A DNA stretch of 64,000 nt, taken from positions 63,745 through 127,744 of the forward strand of contig NZ_SLVX01000008.1 in the NCBI RefSeq assembly GCF_004341885.1, read 5' to 3'. Every line of letters starts with the position of its first letter. Within the stretch, counting starts at the first letter, position 1. The position numbers were made by a program, and so were the translations under genes. A model generated the notes under the pieces. It had not been told where the DNA came from. It did no database searches and saw only the letters and a program-made list of their open reading frames with translations. The stretch is from Shinella granuli. GTDB lineage: Bacteria > Pseudomonadota > Alphaproteobacteria > Rhizobiales > Rhizobiaceae. Positions 13,815 to 37,581 of this stretch are shown here, piece after piece.

Positions 13815-13849
13815 GAATCTGTCAGGTCCGGAATGAACCTGACAGATTC
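13815..13849. terminator. Bidirectional hairpin between convergent genes
   Basis: Perfect 13-bp inverted repeat GAATCTGTCAGGT / ACCTGACAGATTC with a 9-nt loop, exactly between the metallophosphoesterase stop and the lacI-family stop (its last base is the first base of that stop codon). It lacks a long T-run, as many rhizobial terminators do. Confidence 0.55.
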
Positions 13850-14865
13850 TAGGGCCGCACGCTCTTGCGCCAGGCGACCTGCGTCGGCAGGCGCTTGGGC
13901 GGGGCAGGGTCGGCCTCGTCCTTCTCGATGATGGCGACGATATGGTCGGCGATCTCGCCGATCGGCTGGCGGAAGGTGGTGAGGTTGTAGCCGATCCAGC
14001 CGGCCTGCGGGATGTCGTCGAAGCCGACGACGCAGAGCGCCTCGGGAATGTCGAGGCGGAATTCCAGCCGCGCCACGTCCATGAAGCCGAGCGCCAGGAG
14101 GTCGGTGACGCAGAACACGCCGGCCGGCCGGCTGGAGGCGCCGAGCAGCTGGCGGGCGCCTTCCGCGCCGGTCGCGTAGCTGGTCGGCCCGGCCCGGCTG
14201 ACCTGCGCTTCGAGGCCGAGCTCGGCGGCAGCGGCGACGAAGGATTGCTCGCGCGTCACGATGCTCGGCGTGCCCGCCGTCGAGCTGACCACGGCAAGGC
14301 GCCGGCAGCCGGCCCGGTGCAGCATGAGGCAGGCCTCGCGCGCCGCGCTCTCATTGTCCACCAGCACGATCTCCGGCCCCTCGATCGGGTCGTCGCGGTT
14401 GATGAGGATGACGCGCTGGCCGTTCTCGATGCAGGTCTCGATCAGCGAGACGGGCGGCGCGCCGGACACCACCACCGTGGCGTCGGCGCGGTAGTTCAGC
14501 GTCTGGCGCAGCGCCGCCTCGACATTGTCCGGCTGGCCGGCCGTGTTCAGCACCATCACCACCTTGCCGATCGCCTGCAGCTTGCGCGTGGTGACCTCCA
14601 CCACATTGGAATGGAAGGGCGCCTGCAGCTCCGCCACGATCATGCAGACGATGCCGGACCGGTGGTGGATCAGCCCGCGCGCTAGGTGGTTGACGTGGTA
14701 GCCGAGCTTTTCCGCCGCCGCGAGCACCTTGGCGCGCGTCGCCGGCGAAACGCTGGCCCCGTCGGTGAAGGTGCGCGAGACGGCCGAACGCGAGACGCCC
14801 GCGAGCTCGGCCACGCGAATGGCGCTGACCGAGGCCTTTTTCGGCCTGGACCTGGATGTCGTCAC
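13849..14865 (-). CDS. LacI-family transcriptional regulator
   Basis: 338-residue repressor. The GTG start at 14865 has a strong GGAGGCAGGAA Shine-Dalgarno and gives the usual family length; an ATG at 14895 is in frame but lacks one. The N-terminal helix-turn-helix reads I-R-V-A-E-L-A-G-V-S-R-S-A-V-S-R-T-F; the hinge helix contains L-A-R-G-L. The effector domain is of periplasmic-binding-protein type, so a small sugar-like ligand is expected. It is convergent with the phosphatase operon and divergent from the amidohydrolase gene. Palindromes matching those before the second importer lie in the divergent promoter, suggesting control of itself and of that importer. Confidence 0.92.
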   Translation of the reverse strand: MTTSRSRPKKASVSAIRVAELAGVSRSAVSRTFTDGASVSPATRAKVLAAAEKLGYHVNHLARGLIHHRSGIVCMIVAELQAPFHSNVVEVTTRKLQAIGKVVMVLNTAGQPDNVEAALRQTLNYRADATVVVSGAPPVSLIETCIENGQRVILINRDDPIEGPEIVLVDNESAAREACLMLHRAGCRRLAVVSSTAGTPSIVTREQSFVAAAAELGLEAQVSRAGPTSYATGAEGARQLLGASSRPAGVFCVTDLLALGFMDVARLEFRLDIPEALCVVGFDDIPQAGWIGYNLTTFRQPIGEIADHIVAIIEKDEADPAPPKRLPTQVAWRKSVRP

Positions 14866-15023: not shown

Positions 15024-15086
15024 GGTGCACTGTATCGACCTCGCGCAGGCAAGGGAACTCGAAATCGTCTTTCGCGTTATGGCTGC

Positions 15087-15920
15087 ATGACGGACCTGAT
15101 CGACAGCGATGAACGGCGGGAAGGGGCGCTCTGGAGCGTTGCACGCGGCCAGTCGCCGGTCATCGGCACCGCCATTCACGACGGCCACCTGCTGCGCAGC
15201 GACCTTGCGGCACGCATGAAGCTCGACGCTGCCGGCCGGCTGCGCGAGGAGGACCCTTTCACCGCCGCCTTCATCGCGGATATGAACAACCGGATCGTCG
15301 TCCATCGCTCACGCTTCGAGGTGGACCTGAACCGGCCGCGCGACGGCGCCGTCTATCTGCGCCCGGAACAGGCCTGGGGCCTCGACATCTGGGTCGAACC
15401 GCCCGGCCACGAAGTGCTGGAGCGCCTGCTCGGCCAGCACGACGGCTACTATGCCATGCTGAAGGCCCTGCTTGCGGACATGGCGCGTGCCCATGGCCGC
15501 TTCGTCCTCCTCGACATGCACAGCTACAACCATCGCCGGGCCGGCCCCGACGGGCCGACGACCGCGCAGGCCGACGCACCCGACATCAATATCGGCACCT
15601 TCTCCATGGACAGGGCGTTCTGGGCGCCGGTGGTCGATGCCTTCATGGCCTGCCTGCGGGCGCAGCCTTTCCCCGGGCGGCAACTCGATGTCCGGGAAAA
15701 CGTCGCCTTTGCCGGCAAGGGCGAGCAGACGCGCTTCGTCCACCAGCATTTCCCCGGCCGCGGCTGCGCCATCGCCGTGGAGTTCAAGAAGATCTTCATG
15801 GACGAATGGACGGGCGCGCCGGACCGGGAAGCGATTGCCGCCTTTCGCGCCGCCATCCGCGCCAGCCTGCCGGTGCTCGAAGGCGCTCTCCGGGCCATGC
15901 CCGGCGGGGACGGGCCATGA
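15087..15920 (+). CDS. N-formylglutamate amidohydrolase family protein
   Basis: 277-residue member of the FGase/HutG-like zinc amidohydrolase family, which cleaves N-acyl bonds on glutamate-like amino acids. Candidate motifs: G-T-A-I-H-D-G-H near residue 27, D-M-H-S-Y near residue 147, and E-F-K-K near residue 230. The ATG at 15087 is preferred; a GTG at 15018 is in frame but lies inside the candidate operator. No histidine-utilisation genes are nearby. It overlaps the DUF1704 gene by ATGA and the ATP-grasp gene follows, so it probably serves that peptide-modifying set rather than histidine breakdown. Confidence 0.85.
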   Translation: MTDLIDSDERREGALWSVARGQSPVIGTAIHDGHLLRSDLAARMKLDAAGRLREEDPFTAAFIADMNNRIVVHRSRFEVDLNRPRDGAVYLRPEQAWGLDIWVEPPGHEVLERLLGQHDGYYAMLKALLADMARAHGRFVLLDMHSYNHRRAGPDGPTTAQADAPDINIGTFSMDRAFWAPVVDAFMACLRAQPFPGRQLDVRENVAFAGKGEQTRFVHQHFPGRGCAIAVEFKKIFMDEWTGAPDREAIAAFRAAIRASLPVLEGALRAMPGGDGP

Positions 15921-17770
15921 GCGGGCGTGCCCGCAAGGCGGTGGACCCGCTCGCTGCCGTCACCGAGGCACTGGAGCGCGGCCTTCCCGTCCGCCTCGAC
16001 CTGCCGCGCCGCGGCCGGCTCCACCTCGATCGCCCGCTGCCGTTTCTCGCCGTGCATGTGAACCGGCGCTCGGCTCCTGCGGCCCGCGCAGCCACCATGG
16101 CCAATGCCGCCTATCTCCTGGCGGGCAACCTCTCCGACGCCGCGGCCATCGTGCGCCTCGTCGGCGAACGGATGCGCGAGGAATTCGGCGCCTTCCTCGT
16201 GCTCGATTTCGGTGAGCTCGCGCGCGACCAGCTCGCCGCGGACACGCCCTATCTCGCGCCCTTCGAGATCAGCGTCTCGGCCTCGCCCGATGTGGCGGCG
16301 GAGCGCGCGCAGTCGGCCTTCGTCGGCGCGGTGGAGAAGATCGACGGCCGCTACCGCGCGCCGCGCATCGCGCGGCCGACGCTTGCCGAGGATCCCCATG
16401 CGGGCCTTGCCCGGCGCCTGCCGGATATCCCGACACTCACCGTGCGCGTCGCGCCGATCTACCGGGTGCCGACCTCGCGCGCCGTCTATCCGGAACTGCA
16501 GGGCCGGCTGGTCGCCCGGCTGGTCGATGCCGGGCTGCGGGCCGCCGGCCAGTTCGCCCGCAGCGAGACGGCGCTGGCGCCCGCCACCCACCGGGCGCTC
16601 GGACGGCGCGTCTTCGTCGAGGCGGTGGCGCGCGCCGACCGCGCCATGGACGACATCGCCGCCAGCTTCGATTTCCTGCTCGCGGTGACGCCGATCAATG
16701 CCGACGCGGCCTTCGAAGCCTTCCGCGCGGCCGGCTGCGAGCGCGCGCCGACCTTTCTCTACCGCCCGCTCGCCATCGAAATCGCCGCGCGCAAGAAGGC
16801 GCTGTTCTCCATTGCCCTCGACCGGTTCGAGGATCCGGTGCTGGAGCGGCTCTACGGCGAGAAGCAGCAGGAACTGGACCTCCAGCTCTCCATGCTCGCC
16901 GCCCGCGAGGATGCCCGCTTCGTCGAGATGAGCCGGGCGCTCTACGGCTCCGTCGACGGCCGGCTGGCGAAGGTCGCCGTCGATATCCTGGAGGCGACCG
17001 CCAAGCCCGGTCGCAAGGCAGCCCCGCAGGAGGTGGACCATCGCTATGTCGAGCGGCGGGCGCGGGCGATGATCGATCGCTACAGCGCGCAGTTCTCCGC
17101 CTTCGCGCCGAGCGTCGAGGTGCGCAACGACCTTCCGCCGGGGCTGATGGTGTCGAGCGACCGGCTGCTGATCGCCCGCACCACGACGATGGCGCGCGAG
17201 CGGGTCGAGGCGCTGCTGAGCCACGAGGTCGGCGTGCATCTCTTGACCTATTGCAACGGCTCCGGCCACGGGCTGCGGCTCTTCCGGTCCGGCCTTGCCG
17301 GCTACGAGGGCGCGCAGGAGGGGCTGGCGGTGCTGGCGGAATATCTCGTCGGCGGCATGACGACGGCCCGCCTCCGGCTGATCGCCGCGCGGGTGGTCGC
17401 CTGCGCCGCCATGCTGGGCGGGGCCGGTTTCGTGGAGACCTACCGGCTGCTGGCGAGCGAGCATGGCTTTACCCCGCCCGCCGCCTTCAACATCGCGCTT
17501 CGCCTCCACCGCGGCGGCGGCCTTGCCAAGGATGCGGTCTATCTGCGCGGCCTGCTGGAAATCCTCGCGCATCTGCGCGGCGGCGGCGATCTCGAACCGT
17601 TCTGGCTCGGCAAGATCGCGGCCCGCCATTTCGCCGTCATGCAGGAGCTCAGCCTGCGCGGCCTGCTCAAGGCGCCCCGCCTGACACCGCAATTCATGAC
17701 CGCCAAGGGCGCGGACGAGCGCCTTGCCCGGCTGCGTGCCGGTCTTTCACCCCTCGATCTCATCGCCTGA
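15917..17770 (+). CDS. DUF1704 / QEGLA-motif putative zinc peptidase
   Basis: 617-residue protein matching the family annotated as 'flavohemoglobin expression-modulating QEGLA motif protein'. The metallopeptidase motif H-E-V-G-V-H is at residues 436-441 and Q-E-G-L-A at 467-471; E468 is the likely third metal ligand. The same HExxxH fold family includes the eukaryotic tubulin tyrosine carboxypeptidase MATCAP (KIAA0895L), so a carboxypeptidase removing a C-terminal residue is a reasonable inference. The N-terminal ~280 residues are less conserved. No signal peptide or membrane segment, so cytoplasmic. Coupled to the amidohydrolase by ATGA and 11 nt from the ATP-grasp gene. Confidence 0.85.
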   Translation: MSGRARKAVDPLAAVTEALERGLPVRLDLPRRGRLHLDRPLPFLAVHVNRRSAPAARAATMANAAYLLAGNLSDAAAIVRLVGERMREEFGAFLVLDFGELARDQLAADTPYLAPFEISVSASPDVAAERAQSAFVGAVEKIDGRYRAPRIARPTLAEDPHAGLARRLPDIPTLTVRVAPIYRVPTSRAVYPELQGRLVARLVDAGLRAAGQFARSETALAPATHRALGRRVFVEAVARADRAMDDIAASFDFLLAVTPINADAAFEAFRAAGCERAPTFLYRPLAIEIAARKKALFSIALDRFEDPVLERLYGEKQQELDLQLSMLAAREDARFVEMSRALYGSVDGRLAKVAVDILEATAKPGRKAAPQEVDHRYVERRARAMIDRYSAQFSAFAPSVEVRNDLPPGLMVSSDRLLIARTTTMARERVEALLSHEVGVHLLTYCNGSGHGLRLFRSGLAGYEGAQEGLAVLAEYLVGGMTTARLRLIAARVVACAAMLGGAGFVETYRLLASEHGFTPPAAFNIALRLHRGGGLAKDAVYLRGLLEILAHLRGGGDLEPFWLGKIAARHFAVMQELSLRGLLKAPRLTPQFMTAKGADERLARLRAGLSPLDLIA

Positions 17771-17781
17771 GGAGGCTCTCC

Positions 17782-18831
17782 ATGCGCATCGCTTTCTTCG
17801 TCAACTCGATTGCCGACGAAACCCCGCAGTTCACCACGACGACGCTGGCGCTCGCCGCGCTCAACCGCGGCCACGAGATCTGCTACGTCACGCCGGGCGA
17901 TTTCGTGCTGCGCGCGGATGACAGCCTTGCCGTGCGCGGCCTGGTGCTGCCCTCCTCGGGCTACAAGAAGCCGGAGACGCTGCACAAGGACCTGCAGGGC
18001 GAGAACACCGAGACGCGCATCTTCGACGTCGCGGAGATCGACGTCCTGTTCCTGCGCAACGACCCCTCGCTCGACGTGACGGACCGGCCCTGGGCGGCCC
18101 ATGCCGGGGCGCTGTTCGGGCGGCTTGCGGCGCTGCGCGGCACCCTGGTCGTCAACGATCCGGCCGGCCTCGCCAAGGCGCAGAACAAGCTCTACCTGCA
18201 GGATTTCCCGCCCTCCGTGCGCCCGGCCACGCTGGTCTCCAAGAGCATCGAGGAGATCCGCGGCTTCATCGCCGGGCAGAAGAAGAAGGGGGCGATCATC
18301 AAGCCGCTGCAGGGCTCGGGCGGCAAGAACGTCTTCAAGGTCGCCTCGGCCGACGACCAGAACCTCAACCAGATCTTCGAGGCGGTGAGCGGCGAGGGCT
18401 ATCTCATCGCCCAGAGCTTCATGCCGGAGGCGAGCGAGGGCGACGTGCGCTTCTTCGTGATGAACGGCCGGCCGCTGATGCGCGACGGCAAATACGCCGC
18501 CTTCCGCCGCGTGCCGGCCAAGGGCGAGATCCGCTCCAACGTGCATGTCGGCGGCGGGCCGGCGCCGGTGGAGGTGACACCCGCCATGCTCGCCGTCGTC
18601 GAGGCGGTGCGCCCGAAGCTCGTCGAGGACGGCATGTTCCTCGTCGGCCTCGACATCGTCGGCGACAAGATCCTGGAGATCAACGTCTTCACCCCGGGCG
18701 GGCTCGGCAATCTGGCGCAGCTCTACGAGACCAACTTCTCCGACACGGTCATCGCCGCGCTGGAGGAGAAGATCGCCATGCGCGCGGCCTATGGCGGCCG
18801 GCTGGACAACAGCCGGCTCGCCACGCTGTGA
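17782..18831 (+). CDS. ATP-grasp ligase, glutathione-synthetase-like
   Basis: 349-residue cytoplasmic ATP-grasp enzyme that should join a carboxylate to an amine through an acyl phosphate. Seen: F-L-R-N-D-P near residue 90, lysine-rich I-I-K-P-L-Q-G-S-G-G-K-N-V-F (about residues 172-185, nucleotide-binding loop), D-V-R-F-F-V-M-N-G, and the metal-binding C-terminal E-I-N-V-F-T-P-G-G. That order matches GshB, but no gshA is nearby and the partners are a DUF1704 peptidase and an amidohydrolase, so true glutathione synthesis is doubtful. GAGGAGG stands 6 nt before the ATG. Likely role: ligation of an amino acid to an unknown peptide or small acceptor. Confidence 0.85.
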   Translation: MRIAFFVNSIADETPQFTTTTLALAALNRGHEICYVTPGDFVLRADDSLAVRGLVLPSSGYKKPETLHKDLQGENTETRIFDVAEIDVLFLRNDPSLDVTDRPWAAHAGALFGRLAALRGTLVVNDPAGLAKAQNKLYLQDFPPSVRPATLVSKSIEEIRGFIAGQKKKGAIIKPLQGSGGKNVFKVASADDQNLNQIFEAVSGEGYLIAQSFMPEASEGDVRFFVMNGRPLMRDGKYAAFRRVPAKGEIRSNVHVGGGPAPVEVTPAMLAVVEAVRPKLVEDGMFLVGLDIVGDKILEINVFTPGGLGNLAQLYETNFSDTVIAALEEKIAMRAAYGGRLDNSRLATL

Positions 18832-36534: not shown

Positions 36535-37581
36535 TCAGAGGCCGGCGGCCTTCGGGGCGGGGAGGTTTTCCTTCAGCAGCACCTCGATGCGGATGCGCTC
36601 CTGCGAGGCGAGCAGTTCGCGGTGGTCGGCGCGGGCGCGCATGATGCGCAGCGCGCTGCGCACGGCATGGCCGGGGTCCTGGGCGATCACGGCGTCGATG
36701 CGCTCGTCCCTCAGCGCCTGCGCGCTGAAGGGCGTATGCTCGTGCGCGATGACGGTGAGGTCGCGGTCGCCCTGCGCATTCCAGACGGCCGTCAGCGGCA
36801 CGCGCGCCTCCGCGCTCAGGACATAGACGGCGAGCGTATCCGGATGGTGCTGCAATGTGCGCTGGATGACGAGGTCGGCGCGCTTTTCGTCCGCATAGGT
36901 CTCCAGCGACGGCAGGCTCTGGAGATGCGGAAACTGGGCGTTGATGATGCTGTCGAAGCCGAGGCGGCGCTGGATGCTGTCGAGCGCCATCATGGTCTCG
37001 GCGACGACCATGATCTTGCCCGGCCGCGCGCCGATGAAGCGGCCGGCGATCTTTCCCGCCGTCGCGCCGGCGGCAAAGTTGTCGATGCCGACATAATCGG
37101 CACTCTCCAGCCGCTCCTGGCCGGAAAGGAACTGCACGACCTTGACGTCCCGTTCGACGAGCCGCACCAGCGCGTCGCGCACCTGCGGCGATTCCGGCGC
37201 CATGACGGCGACGCCGTCCACCGCGTCGTGGTCGATGGCGGTGAGGTATTTGGCGACGTGGTGCGGGTCGCTCATCGCAATCTGCGCGACCTCCACCTCG
37301 GTGGAATCGGCCCGCAGCGCCTCCTTCGCCTCGCCGACGCGGGCGATGAGTTCGGCAAGATACTGGTCGCCCGAGGTCGGCAGCACGAAGCGGAAGCGGT
37401 AGGTCTTGTTGCGGGCCAGCGCCACGGCCGCGGGGTTGCGCACGAAGCCGATGCGCTCGATGGCTTCGGCCACCTTCCGTGCGGCCCTGGAGCTGACATT
37501 CGGCCGCTCGTTAAGGACGCGGTCGACCGTCGCGAGGCTGACGCCCGCGGCTTCTGCCAGGTCTTTCGCGGTGGGCCGCAT
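36535..37581 (-). CDS. LacI-family repressor of the adjacent polyol/triose operon
   Basis: 348-residue regulator. Helix-turn-helix A-K-D-L-A-E-A-A-G-V-S-L-A-T-V-D-R-V-L at residues 5-23, then a periplasmic-binding-protein-like ligand domain. It is divergent from the ABC importer at 37869 and two palindromes typical of LacI operators fill the promoter gap, so it most likely represses the importer and itself. Convergent with nasA, with a short hairpin-forming gap (CGTTCC / GGAACG near 36503-36530). Confidence 0.92.
   Translation of the reverse strand: MRPTAKDLAEAAGVSLATVDRVLNERPNVSSRAARKVAEAIERIGFVRNPAAVALARNKTYRFRFVLPTSGDQYLAELIARVGEAKEALRADSTEVEVAQIAMSDPHHVAKYLTAIDHDAVDGVAVMAPESPQVRDALVRLVERDVKVVQFLSGQERLESADYVGIDNFAAGATAGKIAGRFIGARPGKIMVVAETMMALDSIQRRLGFDSIINAQFPHLQSLPSLETYADEKRADLVIQRTLQHHPDTLAVYVLSAEARVPLTAVWNAQGDRDLTVIAHEHTPFSAQALRDERIDAVIAQDPGHAVRSALRIMRARADHRELLASQERIRIEVLLKENLPAPKAAGL

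Follow-up and report, generated by a model that had tools for sequence, protein, structure and literature searches.

A conserved trio of FGase-like, DUF1704/MATCAP and GshB-like ligase genes in Shinella as a candidate stress-induced ligate-and-trim cassette

Members of the MATCAP family take Tyr and Glu off tubulin tails (PMC10499314), and RimK and RimB add and remove Glu on RpsF (PMC12239564). According to the latter source, the RimK/RimB and rlo operons both combine an ATP-grasp ligase with a peptidase able to undo its product. Here we analyzed a locus that likewise encodes an ATP-grasp ligase and a peptidase, located in 64,000 nt of DNA from Shinella granuli (contig NZ_SLVX01000008.1, positions 63,745 to 127,744; the whole stretch is called the window). 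The trio consists, in this order and all on the plus strand, of an FGase-like gene, a DUF1704/MATCAP gene and a GshB-like ATP-grasp gene. None of the three proteins matches PF05618, the retropepsin-like family of the RimK/RimB peptidase. We tentatively read the trio as a cassette, induced by stress, that ligates and trims a short peptide, glutathione-like or otherwise. We put this reading a little below an even chance; it is based on gene order, conservation, gene fusion, domain homology and a promoter motif. No description of the trio was found in the literature searched, which did not cover an older amidoligase survey or the MATCAP structure paper, so that an earlier mention is possible. Amidoligase-peptidase neighbourhoods, with the general theme of ATP-grasp ligases standing next to unrelated peptidases, were reportedly treated by Iyer et al. 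in 2009. The theme of an ATP-grasp ligase with a peptidase was already known, while the particular gene set, the FGase fusion and pseudo-domain and the stress promoter appear to be new.

Using open reading frame coordinates and Pfam, the three genes, their lengths, the ATGA overlap of the FGase and DUF1704 genes (15917-15920), the 11-nt gap between the DUF1704 and ligase genes (17771-17781) and the motifs HEVGVH and QEGLA were all found as described in the initial annotation. Shinella is the closest named relative, with a 97% identical protein in S. yambaruensis and a 99% identical one in Shinella sp. HZN7, in whose annotation the trio reappears with identical gene lengths. One DUF1704 gene and six FGase genes were counted in the window genome, together with a second, distant GshB elsewhere in it. 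The initial annotation had made its proposal depend on a conserved co-occurrence of the three families, and this was found in a survey of 398 genomes of the phylum with the profiles TIGR02421 (DUF1704) and NF009110 (ligase). TIGR02421 gave 53 matches in 47 genomes and NF009110, over its cut-off, 16 matches in 14 genomes. Fifteen of the 16 ligases adjoined a DUF1704 gene; the 16th (G109:C7:48-1097; genomes and loci are given by our G and L numbers) begins at a contig end, in a genome that is 82% complete and gave no DUF1704 match. DUF1704 was carried by 13 of the 14 ligase genomes, against a background of 47/398 (hypergeometric P 2e-12, kinship ignored). In 12 of these 14 genomes an FGase lay up to about 2 kb from DUF1704 or was fused to it, the loci of G109 and G173 being cut by contig ends. 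A search by DUF1704 similarity fetched 13 further loci (Shinella, Devosia, Brevundimonas, Mesorhizobium, Rhizobium and another Rhizobiales member), and each of them held the trio; in the one from Devosia sp. A8/3-2 (L013) the trio frames are broken, for which reason it was left out of the protein alignments. DUF1704 of this kind occurred in 117 plasmid records, 79 of them from Sinorhizobium, and Sinorhizobium meliloti 1021 carries an intact trio on pSymB. The genes on either side change from Shinella to S. zoogloeoides, Pararhizobium and Sinorhizobium, and the trio itself was therefore taken as the unit.

Two architectures were observed. In the window type the FGase, DUF1704 and ligase genes are separate and stand in that order. 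In the fusion type, found in six genomes (G243, G303, G304, G318, G342 and G368), the ligase comes first and is followed by a single frame of 660-709 codons encoding FGase and then DUF1704. The FGase half of the fusions matched the trio FGase with an hhalign value of 100% over 225 columns. The N-terminal domain of the window-type DUF1704 protein matched the trio FGase at 85.5% (E 5.7e-6, 78 columns) and the FGase half of the fusions at 83.6% (E 8.2e-6, 184 columns), where eight column shuffles and two unrelated alignments used as controls reached at most 0.9%. The motifs DxHS and VExKK are missing from this domain, which is probably a degenerate FGase domain. Because its match to FGase is weak and specific and the motifs are missing, the window type seems to pair a pseudo-FGase domain on the peptidase with a motif-bearing FGase gene. 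In a midpoint-rooted tree of 47 DUF1704 domains, the window and fusion types formed one group with three short solo forms (0.994), and a further 20 solo forms stood outside it (1.0). The tree comprised 47 of 54 loci, after removal of L003, L007, L008, L013 and L014 (near-duplicate or broken) and of L092 and L093 (length filter). In the ligase tree, window-type and fusion-type ligases were not resolved as sisters. The fusion, the FGase-like N-terminal domain of the DUF1704 protein and the stress promoter described below go beyond the initial annotation.

The DUF1704 protein scored 302.3 bits with PF08014 (MATCAP; cut-off 27) and 346.6 bits with TIGR02421 (cut-off 338.65). It shares the PF08014 domain, the HExxxH...E arrangement and KDxxYLxG with human MATCAP1/2 (TMCP1/2, KIAA0895L/KIAA0895), and differs from them in carrying the FGase-like N-terminal domain. 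Human MATCAP (7z5g) aligned at HExxxH, EGLA and KDxxYLxG, although the sequence score alone was non-significant (E 0.15). Twenty residues were invariant over the 47 domains, including H436, E437, H441, E468, K538, D539 and Y542, and E468 is probably the third metal ligand. An AlphaFold model of moderate quality (mean predicted local distance difference test score, pLDDT, 67.7) gave only four PDB matches at E <= 0.001 with Foldseek, all of them human MATCAP (best 7z5g/7z6s, E 2e-6 to 1e-5; all four at E <= 1.2e-5). The weaker matches (E 0.003-0.06) included many purine nucleoside phosphorylases, the amidase AmiP (7b3n), the phage poly-gamma-glutamate hydrolase 3a9l and, at rank 39, the FGase 2q7s; we ascribe them by inference to the N-terminal domain. 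The label 'flavohemoglobin expression-modulating', which by the initial annotation does not explain the gene context, found no support in the literature searched, and no description of the function of bacterial DUF1704 proteins was found there.

The FGase-like protein scored 92.3 bits with PF05013 (gathering score 28.9) and only 30.2 bits with the HutG equivalog TIGR02017 (cut-off 278.75). The PF05013 domain is common to it, HutG and other FGase proteins, and the trio FGases differ from these in forming their own sequence family, whose profile scored only 20-28 bits on four of the seven FGase genes from elsewhere with which it was compared. The motifs HxG, REEDPfT, SRFe.DlNR, LDxH[ST]YN and E.KK.FM are kept in the trio FGases; by analogy with the M14-like fold, the conserved residues would be metal ligands and base. 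In S. medicae ml29 (L099:5247-9914) the FGase gene is interrupted, with two group II intron reverse transcriptase genes lying between the matched pieces.

The ligase contains both GshB Pfam domains (GSH-S_ATP, PF02955, 165.1 bits; GSH-S_N, PF02951, 47.8 bits), matched E. coli GshB (1gsa) at E 2.9e-34 and shares with it the motifs RxDP, KPLxGxGG, GDxR, GxD and E[IV]N, most residues of the GshB catalytic core being retained. It belongs to the PRK12458/NF009110 subfamily (460 bits, cut-off 408). In contrast to 1gsa, it fell below both glutathione synthase equivalogs (TIGR01380, 198.7 of 299.05 bits; NF003573, 208.4 of 272 bits), carries a PGG loop and has a longer C-terminus ending in Leu. PGG was present in 25 trio ligases at the place where 10 canonical GshB proteins have SPT[CG]I[RK]E. 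The window ligase is not the housekeeping GshB, which is the second GshB of the window genome (C4:128805-129677, 36% identity) and carries the canonical loop. An ordinary glutathione synthetase, which would have spoken against the initial annotation, was rejected for the window ligase on the two missed cut-offs, though such an activity stays a candidate in view of six ligase genomes that have no canonical GshB (G006, G037, G093, G113, G173 and G109). The border to glutathione synthase is thin, because the fusion-type ligase of L058 just passes NF003573 (275.8 bits against 272). The score of the window ligase with the RimK family TIGR00768 was 61.4 bits, below the cut-off of 143.4.

The C-termini of the ligases were compared as well. 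The tail N..[LMI].xL with its final Leu occurred in 30/30 intact window-type ligases from distant taxa (copies not independent) and in 0/6 fusion-type ligases. Six solo ligases on Ensifer/Sinorhizobium plasmids (L115, L117, L121, L122, L123 and L124), with neither FGase nor DUF1704 in the stretch examined, end in Leu in two cases and in Tyr or His in four. The idea that the C-terminal Leu vanishes where MATCAP is missing held only in part among these six solo ligases, which represent one clade. In strain Corn53 the trio and a solo ligase copy sit on different plasmids.

A predicted promoter for the general stress sigma factor EcfG/RpoE2 precedes the trio and is an exact copy of the R. etli sigma-EcfG1 motif GGAAC-N16-CGTT (PMC3892343). 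Exact GGAAC-N15-18-CGTT was found at most 120 nt from the FGase start in 10 of 18 alphaproteobacterial loci (window included; several are near-duplicates), where its background in the same loci was 0.018 times per 450 strand-bases. In 9/11 loci measured, the spacing from the end of the motif to the closest in-frame start was 8-9 nt. In two S. meliloti strains the motif stands 334-361 nt upstream of FGase, and a 70-aa gene that precedes FGase follows the motif at a distance of 56 nt. Two NepR genes are present in the window genome, and an EcfG-type motif lies at both. The general stress response probably activates the operon, and a transcript from the predicted promoter would be leaderless or nearly so. 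The 70-aa gene between motif and FGase in Sinorhizobium (L114:5994-6206, S. meliloti; L099:5006-5218) belongs to no Pfam family. A second EcfG-like motif with a spacer of 18 is present on the plus strand at position 37128 of the window.

Features of the trio locus and its upstream region (positions in the window; residues are those of the encoded protein)
Feature	Position (nt)	Strand	Length or residues	Remarks
LacI-family regulator gene	13849-14865	-		divergent from trio
Predicted sigma-EcfG/RpoE2 promoter, GGAAC-N16-CGTT	15054-15078	+		exact motif, ends 8 nt before FGase start
FGase-like (PF05013) zinc-hydrolase-type gene	15087-15920	+	277 aa	
Conserved FGase motifs HDGH, EEDPFT, SRFEVDLNR, DMHSYN, VEFKK			residues 31, 54, 75, 143, 231	
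DUF1704/MATCAP-family gene	15917-17770	+	617 aa	
N-terminal domain of DUF1704 protein	15950-16522	+	residues 12-202	hhalign match to FGase
MATCAP metallopeptidase domain	16715-17740	+	residues 267-608	PF08014
HEVGVH, putative zinc-binding/catalytic HExxxH	17222-17239	+	residue 436	H436, E437, H441 invariant 47/47
QEGLA	17315-17329	+	residue 467	Q467, E468, G469, A471 invariant 47/47; aligns with human EEGLA
GshB-like ATP-grasp ligase gene, PRK12458/NF009110 subfamily	17782-18831	+	349 aa	
Loop EINVFTPGG	18676-18702	+	residues 299-307	replaces canonical EINVTSPT[CG]I[RK]E
C-terminal tail NSRLATL (N..[LMI].xL-COOH)	18808-18828	+		conserved in window-type ligases

Judging from the promoter motif, sigma-EcfG would transcribe the operon in alphaproteobacteria as a leaderless or nearly leaderless message. 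The GshB-like ligase would then use ATP to extend a short peptide, probably a gamma-glutamyl one, by one amino acid at its carboxyl end, and because the loop after the catalytic EIN is changed, the added residue or the acceptor presumably differs from that of the housekeeping GshB. The MATCAP-type metallopeptidase may trim this product back by its C-terminal residue, after which the remaining acyl-amino-acid bond would be split by the FGase-type hydrolase, and in this way a tripeptide gamma-Glu-X-Y would be built and dismantled by one operon. Among schemes that give all three enzymes a part, this is the simplest. The fusions suggest that the MATCAP protein has its pseudo-FGase domain as a scaffold, being a relic of, or a stand-in for, a fused active FGase. 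Because the ligase is GshB-like and six trio-type genomes have a GshA-type gene and no canonical GshB, glutathione or an analogue appears at least as likely a substrate.

Several observations weigh against the ligate-and-trim cassette. The trio is not tight everywhere, as 38 of the 53 DUF1704 matches have no such ligase adjoining, the fusion of Vibrio sp. HDW18 has none either, solo ligases occur on Ensifer adhaerens and S. chiapasense plasmids, and no FGase lies in the 12.5 kb examined for one of the three copies in G113 (C16, L064). The fusion in G304 (L070) has lost several of the FGase motifs. The promoter motif is only approximate in L098, L116 and L118, and it is absent within 420 nt upstream in L012, L119 and L069. 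The predicted model of the ligase was poor (pLDDT 56.6) and was not used. A gamma-glutamyl substrate is an inference from GshA: a GshA-family gene occurred in 14/14 ligase genomes (PF04262 in 5, PF04107 in 9), a count given without a background rate and with PF04107 also taking in non-GshA proteins. The same count favours a rival in which the ligase acts as a true glutathione synthetase, either next to another one or, in certain genomes, alone, with the peptidases recycling glutathione or its conjugates under stress. Since six ligase genomes lack a canonical GshB, glutathione itself is a serious rival, and the score of L058 points the same way; against this, the window genome and seven other ligase genomes examined have a canonical GshB in addition to the trio-type ligase, and the window ligase misses both equivalog cut-offs and has a changed loop. 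We consider plain glutathione homeostasis unlikely, and rank it after the writer/eraser reading considered next.

The initial annotation had seen in the trio a bacterial counterpart of tubulin tyrosination and detyrosination. Its theme of amide ligation and cleavage fits the FGase-DUF1704 fusions and the three enzymes, which all look catalytically complete, while the pure analogy to the tubulin code was weakened by a GshB-like ligase far from RimK. The wider form of this idea, in which the ligase adds to a protein or peptide tail, as in tubulin tyrosination or glutamylation or in RimK/RimB, and MATCAP, perhaps with FGase, removes, seems rather unlikely to us. It draws on the known MATCAP activity on tubulin tails and the RimK/RimB precedent on RpsF (PMC10499314 and PMC12239564), on an rlo-like pair adjoining the trio in L066 and, by similarity, in L067, on a RimK gene next to a solo DUF1704 (L075) and a fusion locus (L070), and on the invariant C-terminal Leu of the window-type ligase, which may be a self-substrate or docking tail. 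However, no target protein gene is conserved at the trio, the ligase stays under the RimK cut-off, and the tail is absent from the six fusion-type ligases and its Leu still present in two of the six solo ones. A bolder version appears improbable: a stress-induced bacterial 'tail code' with the ATP-grasp enzyme as writer, MATCAP and an M14-type FGase as erasers and the ligase Leu as substrate or docking signal, from which eukaryotic MATCAP would have descended. Its three folds would presumably be those of the eukaryotic tubulin-tail enzymes, TTL/TTLL as writers and MATCAP and CCP as erasers, the FGase fold being taken as equivalent to that of CCP. A role of the trio in the catabolism or salvage of an N-acyl amino acid or peptide from the environment is very improbable. 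The FGase family is mainly hydrolytic, and genes for an ATP-binding cassette (ABC) transporter of the solute-binding-protein-dependent, dipeptide type follow the trio in the window and in HZN7, but this transporter is not conserved at the trio in relatives, and neither the stress promoter nor a ligase of biosynthetic kind suits catabolism. A transcription unit shared with the transporter was rejected on the same lack of conservation. Scarcely credible is an anti-phage system or one of the type that makes ribosomally synthesized and post-translationally modified peptides; clusters for the latter can hold ATP-grasp and peptidase pairs (PMC8939145), yet PADLOC-DB returned 0 families for five trio and fusion proteins, and no precursor or target gene was conserved across 12 intergenic gaps, the small open reading frames there being lineage-specific only.

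Should the ligate-and-trim cassette be real, it bears on several questions. The present label of bacterial DUF1704 proteins is misleading, and one branch of them is now tied to a specific ligase, to a second hydrolase (in some genomes by fusion) and, through the predicted promoter, to the general stress response. The candidate substrates can be tested in a genetically tractable host, since S. meliloti 1021 carries the intact trio on pSymB. The outcome would bear on the origin of the eukaryotic tubulin detyrosinase and on the role of MATCAP-like enzymes before tubulin.

The neighbours of the trio were compared among the relatives. The LacI-family regulator gene of the window was not kept next to the trio in the annotated relatives compared. 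LysR-type regulator genes adjoin the trio or the fusion in L057, L058, L062, L063, L064, L065, L067 and L071; these were grouped by similarity as mutually related, and two of them were scanned with Pfam. A PF05618 Zn_protease gene with 7TM_transglut, of the rlo-like kind, directly follows the trio ligase at L066:2688-4732 (plus strand) and L067:5709-7777 (minus strand, by similarity), and the RimK-family genes mentioned above lie at L075:3046-3948 and L070:5748-6653 (both minus strand). Just upstream of the fusion-type operons, a DUF413/MaoP-like gene was found in three gammaproteobacterial loci (L059:10448-11083, minus strand; L063:6671-7012 and L113:7530-7889, plus strand), and in Vibrio sp. 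HDW18 such a gene occupies the position of the ligase. Lysine-rich small open reading frames stand between trio genes and neighbours at L060:10563-10802 and L064:10103-10258 (minus strand) and at L065:5576-5914 (plus strand). Three genomes that are distant from each other encode exported-looking small proteins in the vicinity of the trio (L057:9910-10269 and L064:10536-10838, minus strand; L065:5237-5509, plus strand); they share the pattern C..Y[AG].ED.V...Y[MI]..C[LI], and two of them, scanned with Pfam, gave no match.

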